Positions 24,271 through 56,290 of a stretch of 64,000 bases of DNA are shown in pieces. A program made the translations under genes and the position numbers. Numbering within the stretch: the first letter of the stretch is position 1; each line of letters starts with the position of its first letter. Source of the DNA: Ulva prolifera (lineage: Eukaryota > Chlorophyta > Ulvophyceae > Ulvales > Ulvaceae); assembly GCA_023078555.1 (NCBI GenBank), contig CM041197.1, positions 12,178,002 to 12,242,001 on the forward strand, read 5' to 3'. The notes beneath the pieces are model-generated. The model worked only from the letters and a program-made list of their open reading frames with translations, searched no databases and was not told where the DNA came from.

Positions 24271-27200
24271 GTGGGCACTGTAATCTGGATGCGGAAAACG
24301 ATCGAATCATCAAAATCTGAGCATGCAGTGCTGTTCGGAACATGTATAAATGCTAGAAGAGACCAGCTCCTTCGTTTCCATGACAGATGTATGAGGCTAC
24401 GGAGCATGCGTGTGCTGCTGAGGTGCACCTGTGGGCACTGTAATTTGGGTGCGGAAAACGATCGAATCATCAAAATCTGAGCATGCAGTGCTGTTCGGAA
24501 CATGCATAAATGCTAAAATACACCATTTCCGTCGTTTCTGTGACAGATGTATGAGGCTACGGAGCATGCGTGTGCTGCTGAGGTGCACCTGTGGGCACTG
24601 TAATTTGGATGCGGAAAACGATGGAATCATCAAAATCTGAGCATGCGGTGCTGTTCGGAACATGCATAAATGCTAGAATACACCATTTCCGTCGTTTCTG
24701 TGACAGATGTATGAGGCTACGGAGCATGCGTGTGCTGCTGAGGTGCACCTGTGGGCACTGTAATTTGGATGCGGAAAACGATCGAATCATCAAAATCTGA
24801 GGATGCAGTGCTGTTCGGAACATGCATTAATGCTAGAATACTCCAGCTCCGTCGTTTCCATGACAGATGTAAGAGGCTAAGGTGCGTGCGCGTCCTGCTG
24901 AGGTGCACTTGTGCTGCTGAGGTGCACCTGTGGGCACTGTAATTTGGGTGCGGAAAACGATCGAATCATCAAAATCTGAGCATGCAGTGCTGTTCGGAAC
25001 ATGCATAAATGCTAGAATACACCATTTCCGTCGTTTCTGTGACAGATGTATGAGGCTACGGAGCATGCGTGTGCTGCTGAGGTGCACCTGTGGGCACTGT
25101 AATTTGGATGCGGAAAACGATCGAATCATCAAAATCTGAGCATGCAGTGCTGTTCGGAACATGTATAAATGCTAGAAGAGACCAGCTCCTTCGTTTCCAT
25201 GACAGATGTATGAGGCTACGGAGCATGCGTGTGCTGCTGAGGTGCACCTGTGGGCACTGTAATTTGGATGCGGAAAACGATCGAATCATCAAAGTCTGAG
25301 GCATGCGGTGCTGTTCGGAACATGCATAAATGCTAGAATACACCATTTCCGTCGTTTCTGTGACAGATGTATGAGGCTACGGAGCATGCGTGTGCTGCTG
25401 AGGTGCACCTGTGGGCACTGTAAGTTGGATGCGGAAAACGATCGAATCATCAAATCTGAGGATGCAGTGCTGTTCGGAACATGTATAAATGCTAGAAGAG
25501 ACCAGCTCCTTCGTTTCCATGACAGATGTATGAGGCTACGGAGCATGCGTGTGCTGCTGAGGTGCACCTGTGGGCACTGTAATTTGGATGCGGAAAACGA
25601 TCGAATCATCAAAATCTGAGCATGCGGTGCTGTTCGGAACATGCATAAATGCTAGAAGAGACCAGCTCCTTCGTTTCCATGACAGATGTATGAGGCTACG
25701 GAGCATGCGTGTGCTGCTGAGGTGCACCTGTGGGCACTGTAATCTGGATGCGGAAAACGATCGAATCATCAAAATCTGAGCATGCAGTGCTGTTCGGAAC
25801 ATGTATAAATGCTAGAAGAGACCAGCTCCTTCGTTTCCATGACAGATGTATGAGGCTACGGAGCATGCGTGTGCTGCTGAGGTGCACCTGTGGGCACTGT
25901 AATTTGGATGCGGAAAACGATCGAATCATCAAAATCTGAGCATGCGGTGCTGTTCGGAACATGCATAAATGCTAGAATACACCATTTCCGTCGTTTCTGT
26001 GACAGATGTATGAGGCTACGGAGCATGCGTGTGCTGCTGAGGTGCACCTGTGGGCACTGTAATTTGGATGCGGAAAACGATCGAATCATCAAAATCTGAG
26101 GATGCAGTGCTGTTCGGAACATGCAGTAATGCTAGAATACTCCAGCTCCGTCGTTTCCATGACAGATGTATGAGGCTAAGGTGCGTGCGCGTCCTGCTGA
26201 GGTGCACTTGTGCTGCTGAGGTGCACCTGTGGGCACTGTAATTTGGGTGCGGAAAACGATCGAATCATCAAAATCTGAGCATGCAGTGCTGTTCGGAACA
26301 TGCATAAATGCTAGAATACACCATTTCCGTCGTTTCTGTGACAGATGTATGAGGCTACGGAGCATGCGTGTGCTGCTGAGGTGCACCTGTGGGCACTGTA
26401 ATTTGGATGCGGAAAACGATCGAATCATCAAAATCTGAGGATGCAGTGCTGTTCGGAACATGCAGTAATGCTAGAATAATCCAGCTCCGTCGTTTCCATG
26501 ACAGATGTATGAGGCTAAGGTGCGTGCGCGTCTGCTGAGGTGCACTTGTGCTGCTGAGGTGCACCTGTGGCACTGTAATTTGGGTGCGGAAAACGATCGA
26601 ATCATCAAAATCTGAGCATGCAGTGCTGTTCGGAACATGCATAAATGCTAGAATACACCATTTCCGTCGTTTCTGTGACAGATGTATGAGGCTACGGAGC
26701 ATGCGTGTGCTGCTGAGGTGCACCTGTGGGCACTGTAATTTGGATGCGGAAAACGATCGAATCATCAAAATCTGAGCATGCAGTGCTGTTCGGAACATGC
26801 ATAAATGCTAGAATACACCATTTCCGTCGTTTCTGTGACAGATGTATGAGGCTACGGAGCATGCGTGTGCTGCTGAGGTGCACCTGTGGGCACTGTAATT
26901 TGGATGCGGAAAACGATCGAATCATCAAAATCTGAGCATGCAGTGCTGTTCGGAACATGCAGTAATGCTAGAATACTCCAGCTCCGTCGTTTCCATGACA
27001 GATGTAAGAGGCTAAGGTGCGTGCGCGTCCTGATGAGGTGCACTAGTGCTGCTGAGGTGCACCTGTGGGCACTGTAATCTGGATGCGGAAAACGATCGAA
27101 TCATCAAAATCTGAGCATGCAGTGCTGTTCGGAACATGTATAAATGCTAGAAGAGACCAGCTCCTTCGTTTCCATGACAGATGTATGAGGCTACGGAGCA

Positions 27201-35409: not shown

Positions 35410-35412
35410 ATG
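35410..35412. repeat. Target site duplication, left copy (ATG)
   Basis: The satellite monomer normally reads GGAGCATGCGTGTGC. Here it is cut after GGAGCATG, and the same ATG reappears just after the right end of the element, followed by CGTGTGC. A 3-bp target duplication is characteristic of CACTA/EnSpm transposition. Confidence 0.9.
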
Positions 35413-35437
35413 CACTACAAGAAACCTGACCGGCCCA
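35413..35437 (+). repeat. Left terminal inverted repeat of the CACTA element
   Basis: Begins CACTACAAGAAACCTGAC and matches the reverse complement of 45073-45097 at 24 of 25 positions. The single mismatch is at position 19, C here and T in the right repeat. Similarity stops after position 25. Confidence 0.93.
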
Positions 35438-35448
35438 AGGAAGGACAA

Positions 35449-35579
35449 GGTGCCCCTTATGACTTGGGGGCTCGTTGGCAGAGGGCTGTAGTGCCCCATG
35501 CTAGTTCAGGGGCGGTTTCAGGATTCGGCAGCTGGGGGGGGTTCCGGCTCCAGGGTCACTTTGAAAGTCAGGGGCACAT
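35449..35579. repeat. Left subterminal GTGCCCC-type motifs
   Basis: Three copies of a short motif lie within about 170 bp of the left end: GTGCCCC at 35450-35456, GTGCCCC at 35491-35497, and the inverse GGGGCACAT at 35571-35579. The right end has the same ATGTGCCCC motif twice. CACTA elements usually carry short subterminal repeats in both orientations that bind a TnpA-like protein. That role is inferred here from position and repetition only. Confidence 0.45.
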
Positions 35580-36128
35580 ATGGGCCCCACGATGAGGGGG
35601 TGTTTGCTTGGGCATCCACCAAGCTGCTCCATAAGGGGCCGTATTTGTGCCACCATGCCATGGCACATTGGTGAAACGGTGCGATGCCCTGCTATGGACA
35701 ATCGGGTCGCATTGAATATTACTATCTTGACAGATAAGGCACATAATCGATTGAATGCGCGAACTGTGCACCGTGGGATGCTGATGACTGTTTCTGGCGG
35801 TTTGGTACATCGACGCACGGACATTGAGCAGGTGTCCCGTGGGTGGTGTGATGGGGCGGCTGTACAGATTCATGAATGCGTAAATCCTGGTCATGCTTCG
35901 CTTGATGTCGGCTTTCGTGGCGATCCTTGCGGCCGCCCGGAGGGAGCCAGCAGCGTTTGTAGCCGATGCATGCAGCTAACGCGGATGCGGCTTTGGGCTC
36001 GACATAATTATCGACTCGCGCAGGCCTGCACTGTGATCACGTTCCCACCGGTGCGTGTGCTCAGTCAGGTGATCCAACGGATGGCTTATGTGCTCATAGT
36101 CTTCTTCATGCGCGGAGAACGGACTTGA
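35580..36128 (+). CDS. Uncertain ORF, 182 codons, in left unique flank
   Basis: This is the longest open frame in the left unique flank. The predicted protein is rich in Cys, Arg and His, with a CSRC pair near residue 130 and a hydrophobic end (YVLIVFFM) just before the stop. I recognise no family, and an opposite-strand frame (35568-35894) overlaps it and is about equally open. No splice or promoter evidence is apparent. It may be a chance frame or part of an exon of a decayed transposon gene. The ATG is simply the first in the frame and overlaps the subterminal region, which argues weakly against a real start. Confidence 0.18.
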   Translation: MGPTMRGCLLGHPPSCSIRGRICATMPWHIGETVRCPAMDNRVALNITILTDKAHNRLNARTVHRGMLMTVSGGLVHRRTDIEQVSRGWCDGAAVQIHECVNPGHASLDVGFRGDPCGRPEGASSVCSRCMQLTRMRLWARHNYRLAQACTVITFPPVRVLSQVIQRMAYVLIVFFMRGERT

Positions 36129-36891
36129 TTAGTCGGCGTGGATTTCGCGTTGCTGCGAGTGAATCAATTAGTGACCAGCGTGCTTCCCCAGTGGCTGCCA
36201 GACGCCAATATCCGAAGCAATGTAGTACGTTCCGTTAGGCTACATGCTCATGCTTCATCTGCCATGGCTTGTGTGTTGCGCCACAGTTGCTCGTGACTGG
36301 TGTTCCATGATGACGCCTGCAGCAAAACGCCATTTGAGGTGAAAACAATGAAAACGATTGTTACACTGACATGCAGGTGATGATGCTCCACTGACGTATT
36401 CCTTCGGTGTATCGTGATCAGTGTTGCAGCGGCAGTTTGCTGCTACACTCCACCTAGCCCAAGGCATCATGATTATGGCAGCAGTAGAAGCTACTTGATC
36501 ACAAGCTACGGAAGGTGTAGTTTACGGTGCAGTGGATAGCCCATTAACGATGAGGTAGGCTGCTGGCAAGTATTATCTGTGAGTATCCACGCTGAATTCT
36601 TGATGTGTGGAGATGCTATGTCTAGCTAGGGCATGGAACTCGTGTCGTGTCCAAGTGATACAGCAAAATGCTTTGAACACCATTTGCTGGCTGCTCATGT
36701 AGGTGCTGCATTCCTGTTGGTTGTAGGTGCTCTGTGCGATAGGCATGGACCTCTATAGAAATCACATGTTGCTGTCTCGACTCATAAACTTCGTCCAGCT
36801 CGGGTAAGCCGCATTATCAGCACAAGTACCTATGGTGTTACATGGTCGTAACTGTTCAACCGAAGGTTGACAGCTTCAAAGTGGGAATGAA
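36129..36891. other. Unique non-coding left flank
   Basis: This is non-repetitive sequence between the uncertain ORF and the 175-bp array. All plus-strand frames are broken by frequent stops, and the only open frame of note is a 71-codon minus-strand one (36255-36470) with no recognisable content. No inverted similarity to the right flank is visible by eye. Confidence 0.6.
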
Positions 36892-39800
36892 AAACTGCAC
36901 AGTTCACTGCACATGTGAGTTGCCGAATGGATTTGCAGCTCAGGTGTGCCAGTGGCAGCCTCAGCTCCTTCACAAAAAATTCAGCATGCTCACAGAAGCG
37001 GGAAACCAGCATGCACGTGCGACGTATGCAGCCAGCACCCAACCCAGCCTTGGGCTGCTGGAGCTCAAACTGCACAGTTCACTGCACATGTGAGTTGCCG
37101 AATGGATTTGCAGCTCAGGTGCGCCAGTGGCAGCCTCAGCTCCTTCACAAAAAAATCAGCATGTTCACAGAAGCGGGAAACCAGCATGCACGTGCGACGT
37201 ATGCAGCCAGCACCCAACCCAGCCTTGGGCTGCTGGAGCTCAAACTGCACAGTTCACTGCACATGTGAGTTGCCGAATGGATTTGCAGCTCAGGTGCGCC
37301 AGTGGCAGCCTCAGCTCCTTCACAAAAAATTCAGCATGTTCACAGAAGCGGGAAACCAGCATGCACGTGCGACGTATGCAGCCAGCACCAAACCCAGCCT
37401 TGGGCTGCTGGAGTTCAAACTGCACAGTTCACTGCACATGTGAGTTGCCGAATGGATTTGCAGCTCAGGTGCGCCAGTGGCAGCCTCAGCTCCTTCACAA
37501 AAAAATCAGCATGTTCACAGAAGCGGGAAACCAGCATGCACGTGCGACGTATGCAGCCAGCACCCAACCCAGCCTTGGGCTGCTGGAGCTCAAACTGCAC
37601 AGTTCACTGCACATGTGAGTTGCCGAATGGATTTGCAGCTCAGGTGCGCCAGTGGCAGCCTCAGCTCCTTCACAAAAAATTCAGCATGTTCACAGAAGCG
37701 GGAAACCAGCATGCACGTGCGACGTATGCAGCCAGCACCAAACCCAGCCTTGGGCTGCTGGAGTTCAAACTGCACAGTTCACTGCACATGTGAGTTGCCG
37801 AATGGATTTGCAGCTCAGGTGCGCCAGTGGCAGCCTCAGCTCCTTCACAAAAAATTCAGCATGCTCACAGAAGCGGGAAACCAGCATGCACGTGCGCCGC
37901 AAGTAGCCAGCACCAAACCCAACCTTGAGCTTCTGAAGTTCAAACTGCACAGTTCACTGCACATGTGAGTTGCCGAATGGATTTGAAGCTCAGGTGCGCC
38001 AGTGGCAGCCTCAGCTCCTTCACAAAAAATTCAGCATGTTCACAGAAGCGGGAAACCAGCATGCACGTGCGACGTATGCAGCCAGCACCCAACCCAGCCT
38101 TGGGCTGCTGGAGTTCAAACTGCACAGTTCACTGCACATGTGAGTTGCCGAATGGATTTGCAGCTCAGGTGCGCCAGTGGCAGCCTCAGCTCCTTCACAA
38201 AAAATTCAGCATGTTCACAGAAGCGGGAAACCAGCATGCACGTGCGACGTATGCAGCCAGCACCCAACCCAGCCTTGGGCTGCTGGAGCTCAAACTGCAC
38301 AGTTCACTGCACATGTGAGTTGCCGAATGGATTTGCAGCTCAGGTGCGCCAGTGGCAGCCTCAGCTCCTTCACAAAAAATTCAGCATGTTCACAGAAGCG
38401 GGAAACCAGCATGCACGTGCGACGTATGCAGCCAGCACCCAACCCAGCCTTGGGCTGCTGGAGCTCAAACTGCACAGTTCACTGCACATGTGAGTTGCCG
38501 AATGGATTTGCAGCTCAGGTGCGCCAGTGGCAGCCTCAGCTCCTTCACAAAAAATTCAGCATGTTCACAGAAGCGGGAAACCAGCATGCACGTGCGACGT
38601 ATGCAGCCAGCACCAAACCCAGCCTTGGGCTGCTGGAGTTCAAACTGCACAGTTCACTGCACATGTGAGTTGCCGAATGGATTTGCAGCTCAGGTGCGCC
38701 AGTGGCAGCCTCAGCTCCTTCACAAAAAAATCAGCATGTTCACAGAAGCGGGAAACCAGCATGCACGTGCGACGTATGCAGCCAGCACCCAACCCAGCCT
38801 TGGGCTGCTGGAGCTCAAACTGCACAGTTCACTGCACATGTGAGTTGCCGAATGGATTTGCAGCTCAGGTGCGTCAGTGGCAGCCTCAGCTCCTTCACAA
38901 AAAATTCAGCATGTTCACAGAAGCGGGAAACCAGCATGCACGTGCGACGTATGCAGCCAGCACCAAACCCAGCCTTGGGCTGCTGGAGTTCAAACTGCAC
39001 AGTTCACTGCACATGTGAGTTGCCGAATGGATTTGCAGCTCAGGTGCGCCAGTGGCAGCCTCAGCTCCTTCACAAAAAATTCAGCATGCTCACAGAAGCG
39101 GGAAACCAGCATGCACGTGCGCCGCAAGTAGCCAGCACCAAACCCAACCTTGAGCTTCTGAAGTTCAAACTGCACAGTTCACTGCACATGTGAGTTGCCG
39201 AATGGATTTGAAGCTCAGGTGCGCCAGTGGCAGCCTCAGCTCCTTCACAAAAAATTCAGCATGTTCACAGAAGCGGGAAACCAGCATGCACGTGCGACGT
39301 ATGCAGCCAGCACCCAACCCAGCCTTGGGCTGCTGGAGTTCAAACTGCACAGTTCACTGCACATGTGAGTTGCCGAATGGATTTGCAGCTCAGGTGCGCC
39401 AGTGGCAGCCTCAGCTCCTTCACAAAAAATTCAGCATGTTCACAGAAGCGGGAAACCAGCATGCACGTGCGACGTATGCAGCCAGCACCCAACCCAGCCT
39501 TGGGCTGCTGGAGCTCAAACTGCACAGTTCACTGCACATGTGAGTTGCCGAATGGATTTGCAGCTCAGGTGCGCCAGTGGCAGCCTCAGCTCCTTCACAA
39601 AAAATTCAGCATGTTCACAGAAGCGGGAAACCAGCATGCACGTGCGACGTATGCAGCCAGCACCCAACCCAGCCTTGGGCTGCTGGAGCTCAAACTGCAC
39701 AGTTCACTGCACATGTAAGTTGCTGAATGGATTTGCAGCTCAGGTGTGCCAGTGGCTGCCTCAGCTCCTTCACAAAAAATTCAGCATGCTCACAGAAGCG

Positions 39801-41190
39801 GGAAACCAGCATGCACGTGCGCCGCAAGTAGCCAGCACCCAACCCAGCCTTGGGCTGCTGGAGCTCAAACTGCACAGTTCACTGCACATGTGAGTTGCCG
39901 AATGGATTTGCAGCTCAGGTGCGCCAGTGGCAGCCTCAGCTCCTTCACAAAAAATTCAGCATGCTCACAGAAGCGGGAAACCAGCATGCACGTGCGCCGC
40001 AAGTAGCCAGCACCAAACCCAACCTTGAGCTTCTGAAGTTCAAACTGCACAGTTCACTGCACATGTGAGTTGCCGAATGGATTTGAAGCTCAGGTGCGCC
40101 AGTGGCAGCCTCAGCTCCTTCACAAAAAATTCAGCATGTTCACAGAAGCGGGAAACCAGCATGCACGTGCGACGTATGCAGCCAGCACCAAACCCAGCCT
40201 TGGGCTGCTGGAGCTCAAACTGCACAGTTCACTGCACATGTAAGTTGCCGAATGGATTTGCAGCTCAGGTGTGCCAGTGGCTGCCTCAGCTCCTTCACAA
40301 AAAATTCAGCATGCTCACAGAAGCGGGAAACCAGCATGCACGTGCGACGTATGCAGCCAGCACCCAACCCAGCCTTGGGCTGCTGGAGCTCAAACTGCAC
40401 AGTTCTCTGCACATGTGAGTTGCCGAATGGATTTGCAGCTCAGGTGCGCCAGTGGCAGCCTCAGCTCCTTCACAAAAAAATCAGCATGTTCACAGAAGCG
40501 GGAAACCAGCATGCACGTGCGACGTATGCAGCCAGCACCCAACCCAGCCTTGGGCTGCTGGAGCTCAAACTGCACAGTTCACTGCACATGTGAGTTGCCG
40601 AATGGATTTGCAGCTCAGGTGCGCCAGTGGCAGCCTCAGCTCCTTCACAAAAAATTCAGCATGTTCACAGAAGCGGGAAACCAGCATGCACGTGCGACGT
40701 ATGCAGCCGGAACCAAACCCAGCCTTGGGCTGCTGGAGTTCAAACTGCACAGTTCACTGCACATGTGAGTTGCCGAATGGATTTGCAGCTCAGGTGCGCC
40801 AGTGGCAGCCTCAGCTCCTTCACAAAAAATTCAGCATGCTCACAGAAGCGGGAAACCAGCATGCACGTGCGACGTATGCAGCCAGCACCCAACCCAGCCT
40901 TGGGCTGCTGGAGCTCAAACTGCACAGTTCACTGCACATGTGAGTTGCCGAATGGATTTGCAGCTCAGGTGCGCCAGTGGCAGCCTCAGCTCCTTCACAA
41001 AAAAATCAGCATGTTCACAGAAGCGGGAAACCAGCATGCACGTGCGACGTATGCAGCCAGCACCCAACCCAGCCTTGGGCTGCTGGAGCTCAAACTGCAC
41101 AGTTCACTGCACATGTGAGTTGCCGAATGGATTTGCAGCTCAGGTGTGCCAGTGGCTGCCTCAGCTCCTTCACAAAAAATCCAGCATGCT
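36892..41190 (+). repeat. 175-bp tandem array inside the transposon, 24.6 copies
   Basis: Direct repeats of exactly 175 bp with landmarks AAACTGCACAGTTCACTG, GAGTTGCCGAATGGATTTG, GTGGCAGCCTCAGCTCC, TTCACAAAAAATTCAGCATG, GAAGCGGGAAACCAGCATG and CCAGCCTTGGGCTGCTGGAG. Spacing is invariant: the TGGCAGCC landmark recurs 24 periods later at exactly 4,200 bp. Copies differ only by a few substitutions, for example AAAAAATTC versus AAAAAAATC and CGACGTATGCAG versus CGCCGCAAGTAG. The unit is unrelated to the 160-bp satellite. Frames of about 163 codons span nearly three units each, because 175 is one more than a multiple of three. They are by-products, since the stop always falls in the same ACATGTGAG or ACATGTAAG. 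Minisatellites inside CACTA elements are known. Confidence 0.96.
37160..39709 (+). repeat. 1,225-bp (7 x 175) higher-order duplication within the array
   Basis: Seven-unit blocks repeat in the same order. The AAAAAAATC variant lies in the units at 37477 and 38702, CAGCACCAAACCC at 37736 recurs at 38961, and the CGCCGCAAGTAG unit at about 37896 recurs at 39121. All are 1,225 bp apart. Differences are single substitutions, such as GTGCGCC versus GTGCGTC near 38872. This implies unequal exchange after the 175-bp array had already diversified. Confidence 0.85.
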
Positions 41191-41742
41191 TGTAACAGCT
41201 GCCATGCGTAACATGTACATTTGCACCCAGGGAATGGTGGGACGTGTGGTTTGTGGACATGAAAGTGAACTCTGCGTATGGCAGGTGGACAGTGGAGAGG
41301 AGTTCATGCCGGTAGAAAAGGCAAATCTGTACAGATCAGTGTCACGAGTCGCGACACGTTTGGATTTGATGCAGTTTACATCCACGACTCTTTATTCTTC
41401 CCTAGAAAACTTTATCGAAGTATGATTTGGTGTGAAACACCGCGTCAAGCTGATTTAATTCCCACATACATTTCTGACTTGCTAGCTTTCGGGGTAAGCA
41501 TCAGCAAGGCTGATGTCCCCAATGCTTGAAAAACTAATATTCGTGGAGGCAACCTTACTCCCCGCTTCCCTCTTAATTTGAGACCTGACGAATGGGAAAT
41601 GGCATCGATTTTGCCCCTCGGCAAATGTACAGAGAGTTGGGTTTCCACCACTTCAGATTTATATCATGCTCGGATGCACCTGGCGCCTGCAAACACAGCC
41701 ACAATATATTATAATTACAGCCTCTTGACTTTTTCAGGTTAG
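41181..41742 (+). pseudogene. Broken coding-like region A (unrecognised protein)
   Basis: Just after the 175-bp array two overlapping frames look coding. One runs out of the last array unit to a TGA at 41423, with MYICTQGMVGRVVCGHESEL early in it. The other runs 41278-41742 with a single internal TGA at 41527 and includes WCETPRQADLIPTY and RPDEWEMASILPLGKC. A frameshift near 41310-41340 would join them. About 154 codons with one internal stop is fewer stops than chance gives. I do not recognise the family. It could be a decayed transposon gene, a captured host fragment, or an exon whose stop lies in an intron. Confidence 0.4.
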
Positions 41743-42187
41743 CTGTGGCGAGACACAGGTCGTGTCATTGACGAGTGCTAAAGGGCAGCAATCACAGACA
41801 CATAAAAGGAGCAGCCACCATACCGCTCGTGCCATCTTTATGATGGCGTCAACGTTGACCTTTGACTTCAGCACGATGATGTGACGGCAGACATGGACCG
41901 TCGCGACTGGATGGCGGAGCTGGGGTCTGGTGCTGCCTACGCCATCGCTGTGGGGTATCCTCCCCCTACGCCACACGCACGCGGTGGCAACGCGCCTGGA
42001 GAACTTTGTCACGCCCAGCGAACGTCACTGAATCTGGCGACGGAATCCGGTCACAAGCGAGCGCATCTCCGCAGCATTGTGGTATGACCGTCTACTCGTC
42101 GAGTGTGAGTTACTGCCAGATTTGCCACCATGCAAGCCGGCCAAGACGCTCCCGGGCTCCGGCCGTATACACTGTCTATTAAGGTGA
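41729..42187 (+). pseudogene. Broken coding-like region B (unrecognised protein)
   Basis: A second phase is open from 41729 to the TGA at 42185, broken only by TGA at 41882 and TGA at 42029 (about 152 codons). It includes ARAIFMMASTLTFDFSTMM and, near the end, ISAALWYDRLLVECELLP, which has the composition of a folded protein. It starts just after TTTTTCAG, which resembles a 3' splice site, and region A ends in the same place in the other frame. A splice or a frameshift could therefore connect A to B. Another frame is open for part of this stretch (41881-42087), so the choice of phase is uncertain. No family is recognised. Confidence 0.35.
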
Positions 42188-43461
42188 TTGACATTTACTC
42201 AGATGGCAAACTCCTCGTGACAGCCGATACGTATACGAGCAAGCCACTAGGGGTGCCAGCAGATTGCCGCAGCCACGCTGAGGAAGTAATCTTGACTATA
42301 TTGAGCGATGTCGGCAGGGCAGGGTCGAAGGAGTTCAGCGTGGAAGGCAGCTTGGAGAAGAAACAATTTAGTCTTCGGAAGATCATGGAATGAATCTACG
42401 CCATGAGACTCGAGGCAGCCGAGCCGGTGCACGAGGCGCTCACGCGACTGCAGAACACTACCCAGATTTAGGGCCACTACAAATTACGTCTGACGACGAA
42501 GAAGAAAGGTCGCGGCAAAAGCAGACCAAAGGTCGATGCGCAGCAGGCCAAGTACGAGGTACGCAGCCACTTTAAAGCTGGCATTTGCACCAAGCGCGTT
42601 TCACGTTCAATATTGGGCGCGCACTCGCGAGTGGTCGACAGTCGCATTCCGCGCCGTCTAACCGTTGGGTCTCTCGTAATGAATGGTTAACAGTGCCCCA
42701 TATTCAACGTGCAGAATCCAGCAAGGAGGGAAGCTGGGCTGGCAACTATAGCGTACATGCCATCAAGCCTGTCCAAGGTAGCTCTCAATGCAGCATTGAA
42801 GGCCAATCCCGAATATTGCGTCAAGGTCAAGTTTCTGCCAAAGGCAGTGACATTCTGGGGACCAGAAGACCGATGGTGGCTACCGAGAATGCCTGTTGCC
42901 AGGCTTGGGCTGCGGGCCAAGCTGAGCTCTGACCTGTTTATCGAGGTCCTCACCCTAGTCTGCCTTCGCTGTTTTCCACAGAATTTACATGAGCAGTACT
43001 CAGGTGATCTCTGAACAATCAACTTTAGGATGCAATGGATTGCAAATGTCAGGTGCCACTCCTTGCAGAACATTGAAGAAGACTCCATCGTTGGCTTCCA
43101 GAAGTTGCTGGCGCTCGCCTCATATGGCGAGGCAATGCGGCGCGATTTGGCGACGAAGCATCTTGATTATCAGACGAAAAAGCTGCATTTGAAAGTGCTG
43201 TCCAAGTATGACATCTTTTCCCTTTCCATGTCGGTATCCTTCGCCAATGTCACGATTCTGTCCTCTGATTACGAATATGCCTGTGTAGGGCCACAGATCT
43301 CTAGAGAACAAGCGCTCGAGATCCAGAGCAGCTTGTCTGATGGACTTTTTACTGTCTATTGGAGAGAAAGAAGCACTCGGTACACACCCAAGTGCATCCA
43401 AGTTGACAGGAGGGGGCCCCCTCCCGGGCACCTTCAGAGTGCAGTTCAAGGCTTTATTTGA
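42109..43461 (+). pseudogene. Broken coding-like region C, ~450 codons with four internal stops
   Basis: One phase stays open over 451 codons except for TGA at 42391, TAG at 42469, TAA at 42688 and TGA at 43012. About 20 stops would be expected by chance. Segments in order: YTLSIKVIDIYSDGKLLVTA; a basic stretch KLRLTTKKKGRGKSRPKVDA; then VKFLPKAVTFWGPEDRWW; then KYDIFSLSMSVSFANVTILS. The basic stretch could contact nucleic acid, but no named domain is identifiable. A second phase is also fairly open at 42390-42575 and 42585-42932, so frameshifts are possible. The ATG at 42130 is the first in the phase, but the real gene, if there was one, probably began upstream in regions A and B. The reading as a decayed transposon or captured gene is inferred. 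Confidence 0.42.
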
Positions 43462-43843
43462 CAGCAGCTGTATCAACAGCATACAGTCTAGCTGCCATGG
43501 GTACGGCCACTGCGACGTGTGTGATGTTCTTGCCCTAGCAGCAGCCTAGTGCACGTGGCGCCATGTTTGTACCCAAGATGACATGCTTCGATGTGCAGGT
43601 GCAGACATAGAATCCAACACAGAACAGTGCAACACAGACCCACAGCTAAGCTTGCCATGTGCCAAGGTGTGTCACCAAATGTTGCATGTCCCCACTCCCT
43701 GCGTTGCAGCATAAGCGTAATGAGCATGCTTGCTCGCATTGAATTCGCAGTTTTAACCATATCCAGGTTTGCTCACTGTCAATAGATGCTGTACGTAGTC
43801 GTGAGGCACTCTCTATGTCGCATTTCTGGTTTCCATTGCAATT
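43462..43843. other. Unique spacer without a supported gene
   Basis: No long plus-strand frame follows the end of region C. Short frames on both strands (43488-43785) overlap each other and show no recognisable content. Confidence 0.55.
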
Positions 43844-44370
43844 ATGGCATTTGTTGGTGTATCCTTCCCTGGCCACATCTTTCTGCTACGGCGGTCCAGC
43901 TCTGTTGCACACAACTATATGCCATCAGCAATGAGTTCTGATTTGGCATTTCATGCAGAGGAAGAGGATGTCAGGGCGGCAGAGGTCGAAGAAGTATTGA
44001 GGCTTGATGCAGAGGTGCAGAACAAGACCACAGAGAGAGGCTGCAGCACATTTGAAGATTTTGTTTTGGACCGTTTTGTGTTGCTTGCTGATTCATGTGT
44101 TGTTGTGATAGTGCAGCCCCCTCTCACCCTGCAGTGGCTTGTGCAATGGCGACCAGGTGTCATAGGAATGAGGGACGGGTATTAGCTGCCTCCAGCCTAC
44201 AGATTGTAACCTTCACAAGCCATATGAGAACAGTAGGTCGCTTATCAGTACTGTACGGCTGCATGCTACATGTTTTCGAGCTCTGGAAGCACCACCATGA
44301 TCTCCTCCTAGCAGTGCAGAGGAATGTGACCCTAATTGCATCAGTGGCAGATTCTGCCACCAGCTCATAA
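43844..44370 (+). pseudogene. Coding-like fragment D with acidic segment
   Basis: A 113-codon frame (43844-44185) contains an acidic, helix-like stretch HAEEEDVRAAEVEEVLRLDA and then CSTFEDFVLDRFVLLADSC. An overlapping frame in another phase (44095-44370) continues with LYGCMLHVFELWKHHHDLLL. One frameshift near 44100-44180 would join them into one remnant. No family is recognised. The same strand as regions A-C suggests it could be a downstream exon or fragment of the same locus, but that is inference. Confidence 0.3.
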
Positions 44371-44997
44371 TAATTGGCCCTGATACCCGTGAAACTGCCA
44401 TTGGGCCAAGGGCACTTCCAGCCCCCTGGTGGTAAGGGTCACTTCTGTGCTCACATAGGAGCAGAATCATGGTGATGTGCCACAGCCTCCTTCTGCCTAC
44501 TTCTATGCCCTGAAGCACCATCTTATAGTCACAAGGAACTCAAATTACACCAATGTTTGGTTGACACGTTTGCCACGATTTATGGCATAGGTGGAAGACT
44601 TCCAGCTCGATCCCGCCACGACGAACACCACCCACCTCGGCGACTTCCAAGCATGCATCCAGCCGTCCAGTGCCGAAATCCCATACACCACACAACGCTG
44701 CATATACTTACGCAACTACCTACATCGCCCACTGCTTTCGCATCGTTTATGCGTTATAAGCATTGCGCGTAGACCGGCTAATCATATAGTTATTGCCCCA
44801 CGGAGCTAGGCTCTGTATGATCCGAAGCGATCGCTGCACGCCAGAGTCGCCGCTTGCCACCACTAACGGACCTGTTACGTTTCATGCATACATGTACTTG
44901 ATGTATTGAATGGATCTTGTTTCTGTACAGAATAACGCCACTCAAGACCGCAGCCGGCTTCAGCCCCTTGCCAATGTCAGCCCCAGAGTTCAGGCAA
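44371..44997. other. Right unique flank, no convincing gene
   Basis: Unique sequence with two short overlapping plus-strand frames (44557-44772 and 44591-44809, 71 and 72 codons). The second begins MEDFQLDPATTNTTHLGDFQ and might be a small exon remnant. Nothing identifies either. A single TGCCCC lies at 44794-44799. Confidence 0.5.
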
Positions 44998-45061
44998 ATG
45001 TGCCCCCAGAGCTACACTCGGACTCATCCAACTGCACCAAGTGCGCCTCACAATGTGCCCC
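44998..45061. repeat. Right subterminal ATGTGCCCC motifs
   Basis: ATGTGCCCC occurs at 44998-45006 and 45053-45061, both in the opposite orientation to the left-end GGGGCACAT at 35571-35579. This is the inverted symmetry expected for subterminal transposase-binding repeats. Function is inferred from position only. Confidence 0.45.
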
Positions 45062-45072
45062 TTCTGTGAGTC

Positions 45073-45097
45073 TGGGCCAGTCAGGTTTCTTGTAGTG
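45073..45097 (-). repeat. Right terminal inverted repeat of the CACTA element
   Basis: Ends GTCAGGTTTCTTGTAGTG, which is the reverse complement of the left end. It matches at 24 of 25 bases and the element ends here at GTAGTG, mirroring CACTAC. Confidence 0.93.
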
Positions 45098-45100
45098 ATG
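45098..45100. repeat. Target site duplication, right copy (ATG)
   Basis: ATG directly follows the right terminal repeat and leads into CGTGTGCTGCTGAGG. This resumes the monomer exactly where the left flank stopped. Confidence 0.9.
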
Positions 45101-47199
45101 CGTGTGCTGCTGAGGTGCACCTGTGGGCACTGTAATTTGGATGCGGAAAACGATCGAATCATCAAAATCTGAGCATGCAGTGCTGTTCGGAACATGTATA
45201 AATGCTAGAAGAGACCAGCTCCTTCGTTTCCATGACAGATGTATGAGGCTACGGAGCATGCGTGTGCTGCTGAGGTGCACCTGTGGGCACTGTAATTTGG
45301 GTGCGGAAAACGATCGAATCATCAAAATCTGAGCATGCAGTGCTGTTCGGAACATGCATAAATGCTAGAATACACCATTTCCGTCGTTTCTGTGACAGAT
45401 GTATGAGGCTACGGAGCATGCGTGTGCTGCTGAGGTGCACCTGTGGGCACTGTAATTTGGATGCGGAAAACGATCGAATCATCAAAATCTGAGCATGCAG
45501 TGCTGTTTGGAACATGTATAAATGCTAGAAGAGACCAGCTCCTTCGTTTCCATGACAGATGTATGAGGCTACGGAGCATGCGTGTGCTGCTGAGGTGCAC
45601 CTGTGGGCACTGTAATTTGGATGCGGAAAACGATCGAATCATCAAAATCTGAGCATGCGGTGCTGTTCGGAACATGCATAAATGCTAGAATACACCATTT
45701 CCGTCGTTTCTGTGACAGATGTATGAGGCTACGGAGCATGCGTGTGCTGCTGAGGTGCACCTGTGGGCACTGTAAGTTGGATGCGGAAAACGATCGAATC
45801 ATCAAAATCTGAGGATGCAGTGCTGTTCGGAACATGCAGTAATGCTAGAATACTCCAGCTCCGTCGTTTCCATGACAGATGTAAGAGGCTAAGGTGCGTG
45901 CGCGTCCTGATGAGGTGCACTAGTGCTGCTGAGGTGCACCTGTGGGCACTGTAATCTGGATGCGGAAAACGATCGAATCATCAAAATCTGAGCATGCAGT
46001 GCTGTTCGGAACATGTATAAATGCTAGAAGAGACCAGCTCCTTCGTTTCCATGACAGATGTATGAGGCTACGGAGCATGCGTGTGCTGCTGAGGTGCACC
46101 TGTGGGCACTGTAATTTGGATGCGGAAAACGATCGAATCATCAAAATCTGAGCATGCGGTGCTGTTCGGAACATGCATAAATGCTAGAATACACCATTTC
46201 CGTCGTTTCTGTGACAGATGTATGAGGCTACGGAGCATGCGTGTGCTGCTGAGGTGCACCTGTGGGCACTGTAAGTTGGATGCGGAAAACGATCGAATCA
46301 TCAAAATCTGAGGATGCAGTGCTGTTCGGAACATGCAGTAATGCTAGAATACTCCAGCTCCGTCGTTTCCATGACAGATGTAAGAGGCTAAGGTGCGTGC
46401 GCGTCCTGATGAGGTGCACTAGTGCTGCTGAGGTGCACCTGTGGGCACTGTAATCTGGATGCGGAAAACGATCGAATCATCAAAATCTGAGCATGCAGTG
46501 CTGTTCGGAACATGTATAAATGCTAGAAGAGACCAGCTCCTTCGTTTCCATGACAGATGTATGAGGCTACGGAGCATGCGTGTGCTGCTGAGGTGCACCT
46601 GTGGGCACTGTAATTTGGATGCGGAAAACGATCGAATCATCAAAATCTGAGCATGCGGTGCTGTTCGGAACATGCATAAATGCTAGAATACACCATTTCC
46701 GTCGTTTCTGTGACAGATGTATGAGGCTACGGAGCATGCGTGTGCTGCTGAGGTGCACCTGTGGGCACTGTAATTTGGGTGCGGAAAACGATCGAATCAT
46801 CAAAATCTGAGCATGCAGTGCTGTTCGGAACATGCATAAATGCTAAAATACACCATTTCCGTCGTTTCTGTGACAGATGTATGAGGCTACGGAGCATGCG
46901 TGTGCTGCTGAGGTGCACCTGTGGGCACTGTAATTTGGATGCGGAAAACGATGGAATCATCAAAATCTGAGCATGCGGTGCTGTTCGGAACATGCATAAA
47001 TGCTAGAATACACCATTTCCGTCGTTTCTGTGACAGATGTATGAGGCTACGGAGCATGCGTGTGCTGCTGAGGTGCACCTGTGGGCACTGTAATTTGGAT
47101 GCGGAAAACGATCGAATCATCAAAATCTGAGGATGCAGTGCTGTTCGGAACATGCATTAATGCTAGAATACTCCAGCTCCGTCGTTTCCATGACAGATG

Positions 47200-50100
47200 T
47201 AAGAGGCTAAGGTGCGTGCGCGTCCTGCTGAGGTGCACTTGTGCTGCTGAGGTGCACCTGTGGGCACTGTAATTTGGGTGCGGAAAACGATCGAATCATC
47301 AAAATCTGAGCATGCAGTGCTGTTCGGAACATGCATAAATGCTAGAATACACCATTTCCGTCGTTTCTGTGACAGATGTATGAGGCTACGGAGCATGCGT
47401 GTGCTGCTGAGGTGCACCTGTGGGCACTGTAATTTGGATGCGGAAAACGATCGAATCATCAAAATCTAAGCATGCAGTGCTGTTCGGAACATGTATAAAT
47501 GCTAGAAGAGACCAGCTCCTTCGTTTCCATGACAGATGTATGAGGCTACGGAGCATGCGTGTGCTGCTGAGGTGCACCTGTGGGCACTGTAATTTGGGTG
47601 CGGAAAACGATCGAATCATCAAAATCTGAGCATGCAGTGCTGTTCGGAACATGCATAAATGCTAGAATACACCATTTCCGTCGTTTCTGTGACAGATGTA
47701 TGAGGCTACGGAGCATGCGTGTGCTGCTGAGGTGCACCTGTGGGCACTGTAATTTGGATGCGGAAAACGATCGAATCATCAAAATCTGAGGATGCAGTGC
47801 TGTTCGGAACATGCAGTAATGCTAGAATACTCCAGCTCCGTCGTTTCCATGACAGATGTAAGAGGCTAAGGTGCGTGCGCGTCCTGATGAGGTGCACTAG
47901 TGCTGCTGAGGTGCACCTGTGGGCACTGTAATCTGGATGCGGAAAACGATCGAATCATCAAAATCTGAGCATGCAGTGCTGTTCGGAACATGTATAAATG
48001 CTAGAAGAGACCAGCTCCTTCGTTTCCATGACAGATGTATGAGGCTACGGAGCATGCGTGTGCTGCTGAGGTGCACCTGTGGGCACTGTAATTTGGGTGC
48101 GGAAAACGATCGAATCATCAAAATCTGAGCATGCAGTGCTGTTCGGAACATGCATAAATGCTAAAATACACCATTTCCGTCGTTTCTGTGACAGATGTAT
48201 GAGGCTACGGAGCATGCGTGTGCTGCTGAGGTGCACCTGTGGGCACTGTAATTTGGATGCGGAAAACGATGGAATCATCAAAATCTGAGCATGCGGTGCT
48301 GTTCGGAACATGCATAAATGCTAGAATACACCATTTCCGTCGTTTCTGTGACAGATGTATGAGGCTACGGAGCATGCGTGTGCTGCTGAGGTGCACCTGT
48401 GGGCACTGTAATTTGGATGCGGAAAACGATCGAATCATCAAAATCTGAGGATGCAGTGCTGTTCGGAACATGCATTAATGCTAGAATACTCCAGCTCCGT
48501 CGTTTCCATGACAGATGTAAGAGGCTAAGGTGCGTGCGCGTCCTGATGAGGTGCACTAGTGCTGCTGAGGTGCACCTGTGGGCACTGTAATCTGGATGCG
48601 GAAAACGATCGAATCATCAAAATCTGAGCATGCAGTGCTGTTCGGAACATGTATAAATGCTAGAAGAGACCAGCTCCTTCGTTTCCATGACAGATGTATG
48701 AGGCTACGGAGCATGCGTGTGCTGCTGAGGTGCACCTGTGGGCACTGTAATTTGGATGCGGAAAACGATCGAATCATCAAAATCTGAGCATGCGGTGCTG
48801 TTCAGAACATGCATAAATGCTAGAATACACCATTTCCGTCGTTTCTGTGACAGATGTATGAGGCTACGGAGCATGCGTGTGCTGCTGAGGTGCACCTGTG
48901 GGCACTGTAATTAGGATGCGGAAAACGATCGAATCATCAAAATCTGAGGATGCAGTGCTGTTCGGAACATGCAGTAATGCTAGAATACTCCAGCTCCGTC
49001 GTTTCCATGACAGATGTAAGAGGCTAAGGTGCGTGCGCGTCCTGATGAGGTGCACTAGTGCTGCTGAGGTGCACCTGTGGGCACTGTAATCTGGATGCGG
49101 AAAACGATCGAATCATCAAAATCTGAGCATGCAGTGCTGTTCGGAACATGTATAAATGCTAGAAGAGACCAGCTCCTTCGTTTCCATGACAGATGTATGA
49201 GGCTACGGAGCATGCGTGTGCTGCTGAGGTGCACCTGTGGGCACTGTAATTTGGGTGCGGAAAACGATCGAATCATCAAAATCTGAGCATGCAGTGCTGT
49301 TCGGAACATGCATAAATGCTAAAATACACCATTTCCGTCGTTTCTGTGACAGATGTATGAGGCTACGGAGCATGCGTGTGCTGCTGAGGTGCACCTGTGG
49401 GCACTGTAATTTGGATGCGGAAAACGATGGAATCATCAAAATCTGAGCATGCGGTGCTGTTCGGAACATGCATAAATGCTAGAATACACCATTTCCGTCG
49501 TTTCTGTGACAGATGTATGAGGCTACGGAGCATGCGTGTGCTGCTGAGGTGCACCTGTGGGCACTGTAATTTGGATGCGGAAAACGATCGAATCATCAAA
49601 ATCTGAGGATGCAGTGCTGTTCGGAACATGCATTAATGCTAGAATACTCCAGCTCCGTCGTTTCCATGACAGATGTAAGAGGCTAAGGTGCGTGCGCGTC
49701 CTGCTGAGGTGCACTTGTGCTGCTGAGGTGCACCTGTGGGCACTGTAATTTGGGTGCGGAAAACGATCGAATCATCAAAATCTGAGCATGCAGTGCTGTT
49801 CGGAACATGCATAAATGCTAGAATACACCATTTCCGTCGTTTCTGTGACAGATGTATGAGGCTACGGAGCATGCGTGTGCTGCTGAGGTGCACCTGTGGG
49901 CACTGTAATTTGGGTGCGGAAAACGATCGAATCATCAAAATCTGAGCATGCAGTGCTGTTCGGAACATGCATAAATGCTAGAATACACCATTTCCGTCGT
50001 TTCTGTGACAGATGTATGAGGCTACGGAGCATGCGTGTGCTGCTGAGGTGCACCTGTGGGCACTGTAATTTGGATGCGGAAAACGATCGAATCATCAAAA

Positions 50101-53100
50101 TCTGAGCATGCGGTGCTGTTCGGAACATGCATAAATGCTAGAATACACCATTTCCGTCGTTTCTGTGACAGATGTATGAGGCTACGGAGCATGCGTGTGC
50201 TGCTGAGGTGCACCTGTGGGCACTGTACTTTGGGTGCGGAAAACGATCGAATCATCAAAATCTGAGCATGCAGTGCTGTTCGGAACATGTATAAATGCTA
50301 GAAGAGACCAGCTCCTTCGTTTCCATGACAGATGTATGAGGCTACGGAGCATGCGTGTGCTGCTGAGGTGCACCTGTGGGCACTGTAATTTGGATGCGGA
50401 AAACGATCGAATCATCAAAATCTGAGCATGCGGTGCTGTTCAGAACATGCATAAATGCTAGAATACACCATTTCCGTCGTTTCTGTGACAGATGTATGAG
50501 GCTACGGAGCATGCGTGTGCTGCTGAGGTGCACCTGTGGGCACTGTAATTAGGATGCGGAAAACGATCGAATCATCAAAATCTGAGGATGCAGTGCTGTT
50601 CGGAACATGCAGTAATGCTAGAATACTCCAGCTCCGTCGTTTCCATGACAGATGTAAGAGGCTAAGGTGCGTGCGCGTCCTGATGAGGTGCACTAGTGCT
50701 GCTGAGGTGCACCTGTGGGCACTGTAATCTGGATGCGGAAAACGATCGAATCATCAAAATCTGAGCATGCAGTGCTGTTCGGAACATGTATAAATGCTAG
50801 AAGAGACCAGCTCCTTCGTTTCCATGACAGATGTATGAGGCTACGGAGCATGCGTGTGCTGCTGAGGTGCACCTGTGGGCACTGTAATTTGGGTGCGGAA
50901 AACGATCGAATCATCAAAATCTGAGCATGCAGTGCTGTTCGGAACATGCATAAATGCTAAAATACACCATTTCCGTCGTTTCTGTGACAGATGTATGAGG
51001 CTACGGAGCATGCGTGTGCTGCTGAGGTGCACCTGTGGGCACTGTAATTTGGATGCGGAAAACGATGGAATCATCAAAATCTGAGCATGCGGTGCTGTTC
51101 GGAACATGCATAAATGCTAGAATACACCATTTCCGTCGTTTCTGTGACAGATGTATGAGGCTACGGAGCATGCGTGTGCTGCTGAGGTGCACCTGTGGGC
51201 ACTGTAATTTGGATGCGGAAAACGATCGAATCATCAAAATCTGAGGATGCAGTGCTGTTCGGAACATGCATTAATGCTAGAATACTCCAGCTCCGTCGTT
51301 TCCATGACAGATGTAAGAGGCTAAGGTGCGTGCGCGTCCTGCTGAGGTGCACTTGTGCTGCTGAGGTGCACCTGTGGGCACTGTAATTTGGGTGCGGAAA
51401 ACGATCGAATCATCAAAATCTGAGCATGCAGTGCTGTTCGGAACATGCATAAATGCTAGAATACACCATTTCCGTCGTTTCTGTGACAGATGTATGAGGC
51501 TACGGAGCATGCGTGTGCTGCTGAGGTGCACCTGTGGGCACTGTAATTTGGATGCGGAAAACGATCGAATCATCAAAATCTGAGCATGCAGTGCTGTTCG
51601 GAACATGTATAAATGCTAGAAGAGACCAGCTCCTTCGTTTCCATGACAGATGTATGAGGCTACGGAGCATGCGTGTGCTGCTGAGGTGCACCTGTGGGCA
51701 CTGTAATTTGGGTGCGGAAAACGATCGAATCATCAAAATCTGAGCATGCAGTGCTGTTCGGAACATGCATAAATGCTAGAATACACCATTTCCGTCGTTT
51801 CTGTGACAGATGTATGAGGCTACGGAGCATGCGTGTGCTGCTGAGGTGCACCTGTGGGCACTGTAATTTGGATGCGGAAAACGATCGAATCATCAAAATC
51901 TGAGCATGCAGTGCTGTTCGGAACATGTATAAATGCTAGAAGAGACCAGCTCCTTCGTTTCCATGACAGATGTATGAGGCTACGGAGCATGCGTGTGCTG
52001 CTGAGGTGCACCTGTGGGCACTGTAATTTGGATGCGGAAAACGATCGAATCATCAAAATCTGAGCATGCGGTGCTGTTCGGAACATGCATAAATGCTAGA
52101 ATACACCATTTCCGTCGTTTCTGTGACAGATGTATGAGGCTACGGAGCATGCGTGTGCTGCTGAGGTGCACCTGTGGGCACTGTACTTTGGATGCGGAAA
52201 ACGATCGAATCATCAAAATCTGAGCATGCAGTGCTGTTCGGAACATGTATAAATGCTAGAAGAGAGCAGCTCCTTCGTTTCCATGACAGATGTATGAGGC
52301 TACGGAGCATGCGTGTGCTGCTGAGGTGCACCTGTGGGCACTGTAATTTGGGTGCGGAAAACGATCGAATCATCAAAATCTGAGCATGCAGTGCTGTTCG
52401 GAACATGCATAAATGCTAGAATACACCATTTCCGTCGTTTCTGTGACAGATGTATGAGGCTACGGAGCATGCGTGTGCTGCTGAGGTGCACCTGTGGGCA
52501 CTGTAATTTGGATGCGGAAAACGATCGAATCATCAAAATCTGAGGATGCAGTGCTGTTCGGAACATGCATTAATGCAAGAATACTCCAGCTCCGTCGTTT
52601 CCATGACAGATGTAAGAGGCTAAGGTGCGTGCGCGTCCTGCTGAGGTGCACTTGTGCTGCTGAGGTGCACCTGTGGGCACTGTAATTTGGGTGCGGAAAA
52701 CGATCGAATCATCAAAATCTGAGCATGCAGTGCTGTTCGGAACATGCATATATGCTAGAATACACCATTTCCGTCGTTTCTGTGACAGATGTATGAGGCT
52801 ACGGAGCATGCGTGTGCTGCTGAGGTGCACCTGTGGGCACTGTAATTTGGATGCGGAAAACGATCGAATCATCAAAATCTGAGGATGCAGTGCTGTTCGG
52901 AACATGCATTAATGCAAGAATACTCCAGCTCCGTCGTTTCCATGACAGATGTAAGAGGCTAAGGTGCGTGCGCGTCCTGCTGAGGTGCACTTGTGCTGCT
53001 GAGGTGCACCTGTGGGCACTGTAATTTGGGTGCGGAAAACGATCGAATCATCAAAATCTGAGCATGCAGTGCTGTTCGGAACATGCATAAATGCTAGAAT

Positions 53101-54980
53101 ACACCATTTCCGTCGTTTCTGTGACAGATGTATGAGGCTACGGAGCATGCGTGTGCTGCTGAGGTGCACCTGTGGGCACTGTAATTTGGATGCGGAAAAC
53201 GATCGAATCATCAAAATCTAAGCATGCAGTGCTGTTCGGAACATGTATAAATGCTAGAAGAGACCAGCTCCTTCGTTTCCATGACAGATGTATGAGGCTA
53301 CGGAGCATGCGTGTGCTGCTGAGGTGCACCTGTGGGCACTGTAATTTGGGTGCGGAAAACGATCGAATCATCAAAATCTGAGCATGCAGTGCTGTTCGGA
53401 ACATGCATAAATGCTAGAATACACCATTTCCGTCGTTTCTGTGACAGATGTATGAGGCTACGGAGCATGCGTGTGCTGCTGAGGTGCACCTGTGGGCACT
53501 GTAATTTGGATGCGGAAAACGATCGAATCATCAAAATCTGAGGATGCAGTGCTGTTCGGAACATGCAGTAATGCTAGAATACTCCAGCTCCGTCGTTTCC
53601 ATGACAGATGTAAGAGGCTAAGGTGCGTGCGCGTCCTGATGAGGTGCACTAGTGCTGCTGAGGTGCACCTGTGGGCACTGTAATCTGGATGCGGAAAACG
53701 ATCGAATCATCAAAATCTGAGCATGCAGTGCTGTTCGGAACATGTATAAATGCTAGAAGAGACCAGCTCCTTCGTTTCCATGACAGATGTATGAGGGCTA
53801 CGGAGCATGCGTGTGCTGCTGAGGTGCACCTGTGGGCACTGTAATTTGGGTGCGGAAAACGATCGAATCATCAAAATCTGAGCATGCAGTGCTGTTCGGA
53901 ACATGCATAAATGCTAAAATACACCATTTCCGTCGTTTCTGTGACAGATGTATGAGGCTACGGAGCATGCGTGTGCTGCTGAGGTGCACCTGTGGGCACT
54001 GTAATTTGGATGCGGAAAACGATGGAATCATCAAAATCTGAGCATGCGGTGCTGTTCGGAACATGCATAAATGCTAGAATACACCATTTCCGTCGTTTCT
54101 GTGACAGATGTATGAGGCTACGGAGCATGCGTGTGCTGCTGAGGTGCACCTGTGGGCACTGTAATTTGGATGCGGAAAACGATCGAATCATCAAAATCTG
54201 AGGATGCAGTGCTGTTCGGAACATGCATTAATGCTAGAATACTCCAGCTCCGTCGTTTCCATGACAGATGTAAGAGGCTAAGGTGCGTGCGCGTCCTGAT
54301 GAGGTGCACTAGTGCTGCTGAGGTGCACCTGTGGGCACTGTAATCTGGATGCGGAAAACGATCGAATCATCAAAATCTGAGCATGCAGTGCTGTTCGGAA
54401 CATGTATAAATGCTAGAAGAGACCAGCTCCTTCGTTTCCATGACAGATGTATGAGGCTACGGAGCATGCGTGTGCTGCTGAGGTGCACCTGTGGGCACTG
54501 TAATTTGGATGCGGAAAACGATCGAATCATCAAAATCTGAGCATGCGGTGCTGTTCAGAACATGCATAAATGCTAGAATACACCATTTCCGTCGTTTCTG
54601 TGACAGATGTATGAGGCTACGGAGCATGCGTGTGCTGCTGAGGTGCACCTGTGGGCACTGTAATTAGGATGCGGAAAACGATCGAATCATCAAAATCTGA
54701 GGATGCAGTGCTGTTCGGAACATGCAGTAATGCTAGAATACTCCAGCTCCGTCGTTTCCATGACAGATGTAAGAGGCTAAGGTGCGTGCGCGTCCTGATG
54801 AGGTGCACTAGTGCTGCTGAGGTGCACCTGTGGGCACTGTAATCTGGATGCGGAAAACGATCGAATCATCAAAATCTGAGCATGCAGTGCTGTTCGGAAC
54901 ATGTATAAATGCTAGAAGAGACCAGCTCCTTCGTTTCCATGACAGATGTATGAGGCTACGGAGCATGCGTGTGCTGCTGA
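47200..54980 (+). repeat. Long-range duplicated satellite block, offset ~5,752 bp
   Basis: The region from about 47.2 to 49.2 kb recurs at about 52.95-54.98 kb. Rare variants share the offset: ATCTAAGCATGC at 47466 and 53218, then the marker pair, GTTCAGAACATG at 48803 and 54555, and TAATTAGGATGCGG at 48911 and 54663. The offset is 5,752 or 5,753 bp, the extra base being one insertion near 53795. The span given covers both copies and the sequence between them. Confidence 0.75.
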
Positions 54981-56290
54981 GGTGCACCTGTGGGCACTGT
55001 AATTTGGATGCGGAAAACGATCGAATCATCAAATCTGAGCATGCGGTGCTGTTCAGAACATGCATAAATGCTAGAATACACCATTTCCGTCGTTTCTGTG
55101 ACAGATGTATGAGGCTACGGAGCATGCGTGTGCTGCTGAGGTGCACCTGTGGGCACTGTAATTTGGGTGCGGAAAACGATCGAATCATCAAAATCTGAGC
55201 ATGCAGTGCTGTTCGGAACATGCATAAATGCTAGAATACAACCATTTCCGTCGTTTCTGTGACAGATGTATGAGGCTACGGAGCATGCGTGTGCTGCTGA
55301 GGTGCACCTGTGGGCACTGTAATTTGGATGCGGAAAACGATCGAATCATCAAAATCTGAGCATGCAGTGCTGTTCGGAACATGTATAAATGCTAGAAGAG
55401 ACCAGCTCCTTCGTTTCCATGACAGATGTATGAGGCTACGGAGCATGCGTGTGCTGCTGAGGTGCACCTGTGGGCACTGTAATTTGGATGCGGAAAACGA
55501 TCGAATCATCAAAATCTGAGCATGCGGTGCTGTTCGGAACATGCATAAATGCTAGAATACACCATTTCCGTCGTTTCTGTGACAGATGTATGAGGCTACG
55601 GAGCATGCGTGTGCTGCTGAGGTGCACCTGTGGGCACTGTACTTTGGATGCGGAAAACGATCGAATCATCAAAATCTGAGCATGCAGTGCTGTTCGGAAC
55701 ATGTATAAATGCTAGAAGAGAGCAGCTCCTTCGTTTCCATGACAGATGTATGAGGCTACGGAGCATGCGTGTGCTGCTGAGGTGCACCTGTGGGCACTGT
55801 AATTTGGGTGCGGAAAAACGATCGAATCATCAAAATCTGAGCATGCAGTGCTGTTCGGAACATGCATAAATGCTAGAATACACCATTTCCGTCGTTTCTG
55901 TGACAGATGTATGAGGCTACGGAGCATGCGTGTGCTGCTGAGGTGCACCTGTGGGCACTGTAATTTGGATGCGGAAAACGATCGAATCATCAAAATCTGA
56001 GGATGCAGTGCTGTTCGGAACATGCATTAATGCAAGAATACTCCAGCTCCGTCGTTTCCATGACAGATGTAAGAGGCTAAGGTGCGTGCGCGTCCTGCTG
56101 AGGTGCACTTGTGCTGCTGAGGTGCACCTGTGGGCACTGTAATTTGGGTGCGGAAAACGATCGAATCATCAAAATCTGAGCATGCAGTGCTGTTCGGAAC
56201 ATGCATAAATGCTAGAATACACCATTTCCGTCGTTTCTGTGACAGATGTATGAGGCTACGGAGCATGCGTGTGCTGCTGAGGTGCACCTG
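51650..56290 (+). repeat. Duplicated satellite block, offset ~3,456 bp
   Basis: About 1.1 kb at 51.65-52.8 kb is repeated at 55.1-56.29 kb. CTGTACTTTGG lies at 52184 and 55640, AGAGAGCAGCTCC follows in both, and ATGCAAGAATACTCC lies at 52573 and 56033. The offset is 3,456 bp, growing slightly after single-base insertions. The span covers both copies. Confidence 0.7.

Follow-up and report, generated by a model that had tools for sequence, protein, structure and literature searches.

In the maize En/Spm system, dSpm elements are internal deletion derivatives with intact ends, which are non-autonomous and are moved in trans. Idaten is likewise a member of the CACTA superfamily. As a transposon of the green alga Volvox carteri, it is named in a title among the references of PMC4158355. 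CACTA elements with satellite arrays, as well as satellites derived from CACTA elements, have already been published (PMC8978399, PMC7320549). Among the Jozin-type CACTA elements of Chenopodium described there, one element holds an internal array of 32.5 monomers of 171 bp (PMC8978399); in these elements the array is found near the 3' end, and a Transposase_21 domain is retained (PMC8978399, PMC7320549). In the open-licence literature, we found no work on the family described below or on almost identical CACTA copies that differ in array length, and none that treats CACTA elements, Chlorophyta and centromeres together.

Here we analysed a 64,000-nucleotide stretch of Ulva prolifera DNA (G000:C2:12178002-12242001, hereafter the window), in which positions 35413–45097 hold a 9,685-bp element inside an array of 160/179-bp satellite monomers. 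At its borders the triplet ATG is found in identical form on both sides, at 35410–35412 on the left and at 45098–45100 on the right. The 25-bp 5' terminal inverted repeat (35413–35437, forward strand) begins with CACTACAAGAAACC, and the 25-bp 3' repeat (45073–45097, reverse strand) ends with TTTCTTGTAGTG; the first 25 bases differ from the reverse complement of the last 25 by a single mismatch, at position 19. The CACTA-type ends, the 25-bp inverted repeats with one mismatch and the ATG duplication reported in the initial annotation are thus correct to the base. That annotation had also stated that removing the element and one ATG leaves an uninterrupted 160-bp monomer. Indeed, when the element and 3 bp are subtracted, the satellite anchors on either side lie 320 bp apart, exactly two monomers (2 × 160). 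Once joined by a script, the flanks give uninterrupted alignments to other blocks of the array, and an element-free block at 21327–24530 shares 99.0% identity with them over 3,206 aligned columns. Thus, a paralogous empty site is present in the same satellite array. The family, boundaries and target site read from the sequence are supported, as is the empty site, and the termini recur in sister copies. The insertion is real, though of a known kind.

The host array extends over 1–35409 to the left and 45101–63153 to the right of the insertion, both on the forward strand, and resumes beyond a run of 382 N that lies within the satellite at 63154–63535 and may be either an assembly gap or a stretch that was withheld. 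Its description as homogeneous holds in part: 160- and 179-bp monomers are mixed, a conserved satellite word is matched less often near the left edge, and the remaining listed blocks are 93–97% alike. Within 1–20000, the satellite is more diverged than in the rest of the array, as expected at an array edge. In the genome, one exact 24-base word from the monomer is present in 1,124 forward and 106 reverse copies; among the matches listed, all are on contig C2, the reverse ones from 10.77 Mb and the forward ones from 12.168 Mb. At the density seen in the window, 1,124 copies would amount to about 319 kb of satellite, a size that would be compatible with an array extending towards the end of contig C2.

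The search for sister copies proposed in the initial annotation was performed against 88.9 Mb in 44 contigs. Light-harvesting genes assign this genome to the green lineage; for one of them, the best PDB match is 9vfj, followed by chlorophyll a-b binding proteins. A search for the RuBisCO large chain gave no hit. The first 300 bp of the element gave 23 matches, 14 of which cover the full 300 bp at 97–100% identity, and the last 300 bp gave 14 matches, 12 of them full-length at 93–100%. Pairing of the ends yielded 12 two-ended copies, the window copy included, which range from 5,831 to 17,887 bp; the family thus has other copies with these termini. For two more copies, c2f and c8, only the 5' end was found in the stretch examined. 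The start of the 5' repeat is identical in all 14 copies with a 5' end, and all 12 two-ended copies carry the inverted ends CACTA...TAGTG together with a perfect 3-bp target-site duplication, as is characteristic of CACTA (En/Spm) elements, with 12 different triplets. A chance origin of the ends was rejected on the basis of these matching duplications. The mismatch at position 19 recurs in every two-ended copy (c2e and c1c each have one more), so it is an ancestral feature of the family rather than decay of the window copy. Three copies, c9, c4 and c2b, diverge by only 0.07–0.15%, yet have different flanks and triplets; therefore, the family has been mobile recently. Among the other copies, c2c (G000:C2:6114433-6127312) is interrupted by a nested insert (about 4.06 kb) whose reverse-transcriptase match is weak and below the cut-off (E 6.8e-5), and its arm beyond the insert is 99.9% identical to c9. 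The copy c8 (G000:C8:6109572), near the end of contig C8, matches the family over 591 bp only and sits within a 62-bp satellite present on both sides. Inward-facing pairs of CACTACAAGAAAC at C2:70394-71092, C3:1642430-1645889 and C5:8419728-8424815, which lie 0.7, 3.5 and 5.1 kb apart, are perhaps short relatives.

Between its inverted repeats, the window copy comprises a non-repeated left arm (35438–36891), an internal tandem array with a period of 175 bp (36892–41188) and a non-repeated right arm with no recognised gene (41189–45072), all given on the forward strand. The array consists of 24.6 units with repeated multi-unit blocks and makes up 44% of the copy, which therefore has a long tandem array within the element, as Jozin does. 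Close to the ends, where subterminal repeats at close spacing would be expected of a CACTA element, the word GGGGCAC, picked after looking, occurs five times in the outer 500 bp when both strands are counted, at 35450, 35491 and 35571 in the left arm and at 45000 and 45055 in the right arm. No 7-base word reached five in 1,000 single-base shuffles, and the highest count of any 7-base word in 33 interior windows was four. The GGGGCAC positions are identical in c2e and c9, and one is absent in c1d. Among exact words of 8, 9, 10 or 12 bases, none is found three times within the outer 600 bp on either side.

The 17.9-kb relative c2e (G000:C2:10302845-10320731) is the sole two-ended copy with two segments that have no counterpart in the window copy. 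One of about 5.2 kb (c2e 1500–6700), with transposase-like exons in open stretches on the opposite strand, corresponds to 36892–36898 in the window; this transposase segment is absent in 11 of the 12 two-ended copies. The other, of about 2.5 kb (c2e ~13750–16240) with 257- and 378-aa open stretches, corresponds to 43490–43534, an edge that shifts with the BLAST task. Further c2e stretches may resemble plant TnpD, which we take as a lead only. DUF4218 is counted among the CACTA transposase domains in PMC8978399. A Pfam scan of ten c2e open stretches gave DUF4218 as the best match for one (E 0.066, below the cut-off) and no DUF4218 for the other nine. In three relatives from the same genome, the corresponding stretch gave DUF4218 at E 0.003–0.03, again below the cut-off, and a 570-aa frame in a more distant relative gave no DUF4218 match. 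Searched against the genome, the c2e stretch with the DUF4218 match yielded 120 matches, the query itself among them and several loci matched twice; many of the 120 lie within long open frames, and CACTA-like families thus seem numerous in this genome. A genome search for DUF4218 gave 60 weak hits, all below the cut-off (best E 9.7e-4, 25.0 of 27 bits). Of these, at least 31 begin within or next to a match of the c2e stretch, a lower bound obtained from 48 of the 120 matches, some of them chosen by eye. A genome search for Transposase_21 gave no hit, nor did its controls, a PDB search with one c2e stretch gave none, and a 4.5-kb piece near a relative's 1,821-aa frame yielded no frame reaching 250 aa.

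The 175-bp array is present in 13 of the 14 copies, c8 being the one without it, and starts in the same register in 12 of these 13; in c2e, it is offset and split. Its size ranges from 2.6 to 53.6 units, lengths that come from one assembly and may partly reflect assembly error. The copies c9, c4 and c2b have 23.6, 12.6 and 53.6 units, respectively, at a divergence of 0.07–0.14% in the left arm and 0.08–0.15% in the right arm, a right-arm comparison that covers the copies other than c2c, with its nested insert, and c2f and c8, whose 3' ends were not found in the stretch examined. Similarly, c1b and c2d differ in array size (14.6 versus 35.6 units) despite a divergence of 0.07 and 0.31%. For the unit-type strings, arrays were split at one anchor, so that stretches of 349–875 bases are units with a missed anchor. 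The strings of c9, c4 and c2b share their first and last members, and the differences between them are repeated blocks. The repeat inside the element would accordingly gain and lose whole units and blocks, possibly via slippage, unequal exchange or gap repair.

An alignment of ten copies with 5,351 gap-free columns assigned 31 private substitutions to the window copy, the fourth highest number after c1c (61), c1d (39) and c1a (34); the lowest is c2b with 1. In a tree built without c2c, c2f and c8, and with c2e represented by 2.3 kb of its right arm only, the branch of the window copy is 0.0066. The insertion in the window is not among the youngest of the family. The 1.0% divergence of the closest empty block would fit an insertion after the block was duplicated, a timing made weak by the homogenisation of satellites. 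The copy had been put forward as useful for dating array turnover; comparison of 31 substitutions in 5,351 columns with the 1.0% divergence permits an estimate, and only a rough one.

Satellite arrays assemble poorly, and the N run at 63154–63535 lies in this one, so that the junctions might be assembly joins without any transposition. Against this reading stand the exact duplication and two-monomer spacing at the window copy, together with 11 more two-ended copies that each have their own duplications, 6 of the 11 outside tandem arrays; we consider it hardly credible. The two intact ends and the length of 9.7 kb would agree with a complete, self-sufficient CACTA element, and the copy had indeed been called full-length-looking, a description that has to be withdrawn. 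Its longest between-stop frame is 218 aa and reads through the 175-bp repeats, and none of the 20 frames of at least 90 aa outside the array has a Pfam family above the cut-off (19 without a match at E ≤ 0.1, one at E 0.023). Frames alone would allow a gene of many small exons, but the c2e segment with the transposase-like exons is missing here. Hence the window copy lacks a recognisable transposase gene of its own, which an autonomous CACTA element should have, and the complete autonomous copy was rejected as a candidate; self-sufficiency is very improbable. The window copy is, with high probability, a non-autonomous CACTA (En/Spm) deletion derivative that entered one satellite monomer by cut-and-paste, its enzyme acting in trans. 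The insertion would have involved a 3-bp staggered cut, and the element appears to have retained its ends and lost the transposase segment. Gain of both segments by c2e, their sole two-ended carrier, instead of loss elsewhere is also conceivable. The window copy and c2e agree at 26 of 26 terminal positions on the 5' side and at 25 of 26 on the 3' side. A single enzyme could thus act on both, and the enzyme was most likely supplied by a c2e-like source.

Two further questions concern the tandem repeats around and inside this derivative. In TRF analysis of 600-bp flanks (300 bp on one side for c2f), tandem arrays border 6 of the 12 two-ended copies on both sides, with periods of 160 bp for the window copy, 53/171 for c4, 167 for c2b and c2c, which share one satellite, 32 for c1a and 92 for c2d; none were found in these flanks of c9, c1b, c3, c1d, c2e, c1c and c2f. 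With c8 in its 62-bp array, the count rises to 7 of 14 copies, in six kinds of tandem array, compared with 0 of 159 tiles from 29 other loci (Fisher P 1e-4, which is too small because the loci, 20 transposase, some overlapping, 6 light-harvesting and 3 others, are neither random nor independent). This difference, the presence of G at position −5 relative to the duplicated triplet at 10 of 12 reconstructed target sites, and the precedent of Athila retrotransposon insertions in Arabidopsis centromeric satellites, as reviewed in PMC12477314, speak for a family directed to satellite DNA or its chromatin, as opposed to chance landing or survival there. The G would arise by chance at about 1e-4 for one position (G share 0.28, uncorrected for the positions looked at), and the target sites otherwise have no clear consensus. 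However, purging of genic insertions would yield the same picture, and we regard targeting as a doubtful, though not negligible, explanation; the association may reflect targeting, survival in gene-poor DNA or a satellite-rich genome. As for the internal array, capture from a chromosomal satellite, rather than growth within the element, has a parallel in the 171-bp array of a Chenopodium CACTA element that is labelled captured satDNA in PMC8978399. Nevertheless, one 175-bp unit gave 256 matches in the genome, and among those listed all are within copies of this family; capture is thus unlikely. We likewise give little credence to a combined scheme in which the length of the internal array is reset over times comparable to those of transposition and the element prefers other satellites, thereby shuttling tandem repeats between satellite compartments.

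Near-identical copies with very unequal arrays constitute a natural experiment on array expansion within transposons and offer a test of transposition itself as its driver, and the empty paralogous block offers an approximate time marker inside a single satellite array. Apart from these two aspects, the locus represents a commonplace insertion by a defective transposon. Like maize dSpm, the window family combines internal deletion with intact ends, and it differs from dSpm by its large tandem array and its host lineage. With Idaten it shares the property of being a green-alga transposon, a likeness by description only. With Jozin-type elements it shares an internal array with units of about 170 bp, a likeness of description; in contrast to Jozin, 11 of the 12 two-ended copies here are without the transposase segment of c2e, and the array differs 20-fold in size between copies, near-identical ones included. 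This variation is reminiscent of the DNA transposon Galileo of Drosophila, whose copies also differ via internal direct tandem repeats; according to PMC4168063, Galileo belongs to the P superfamily and, unlike the window family, carries these repeats in its inverted ends.
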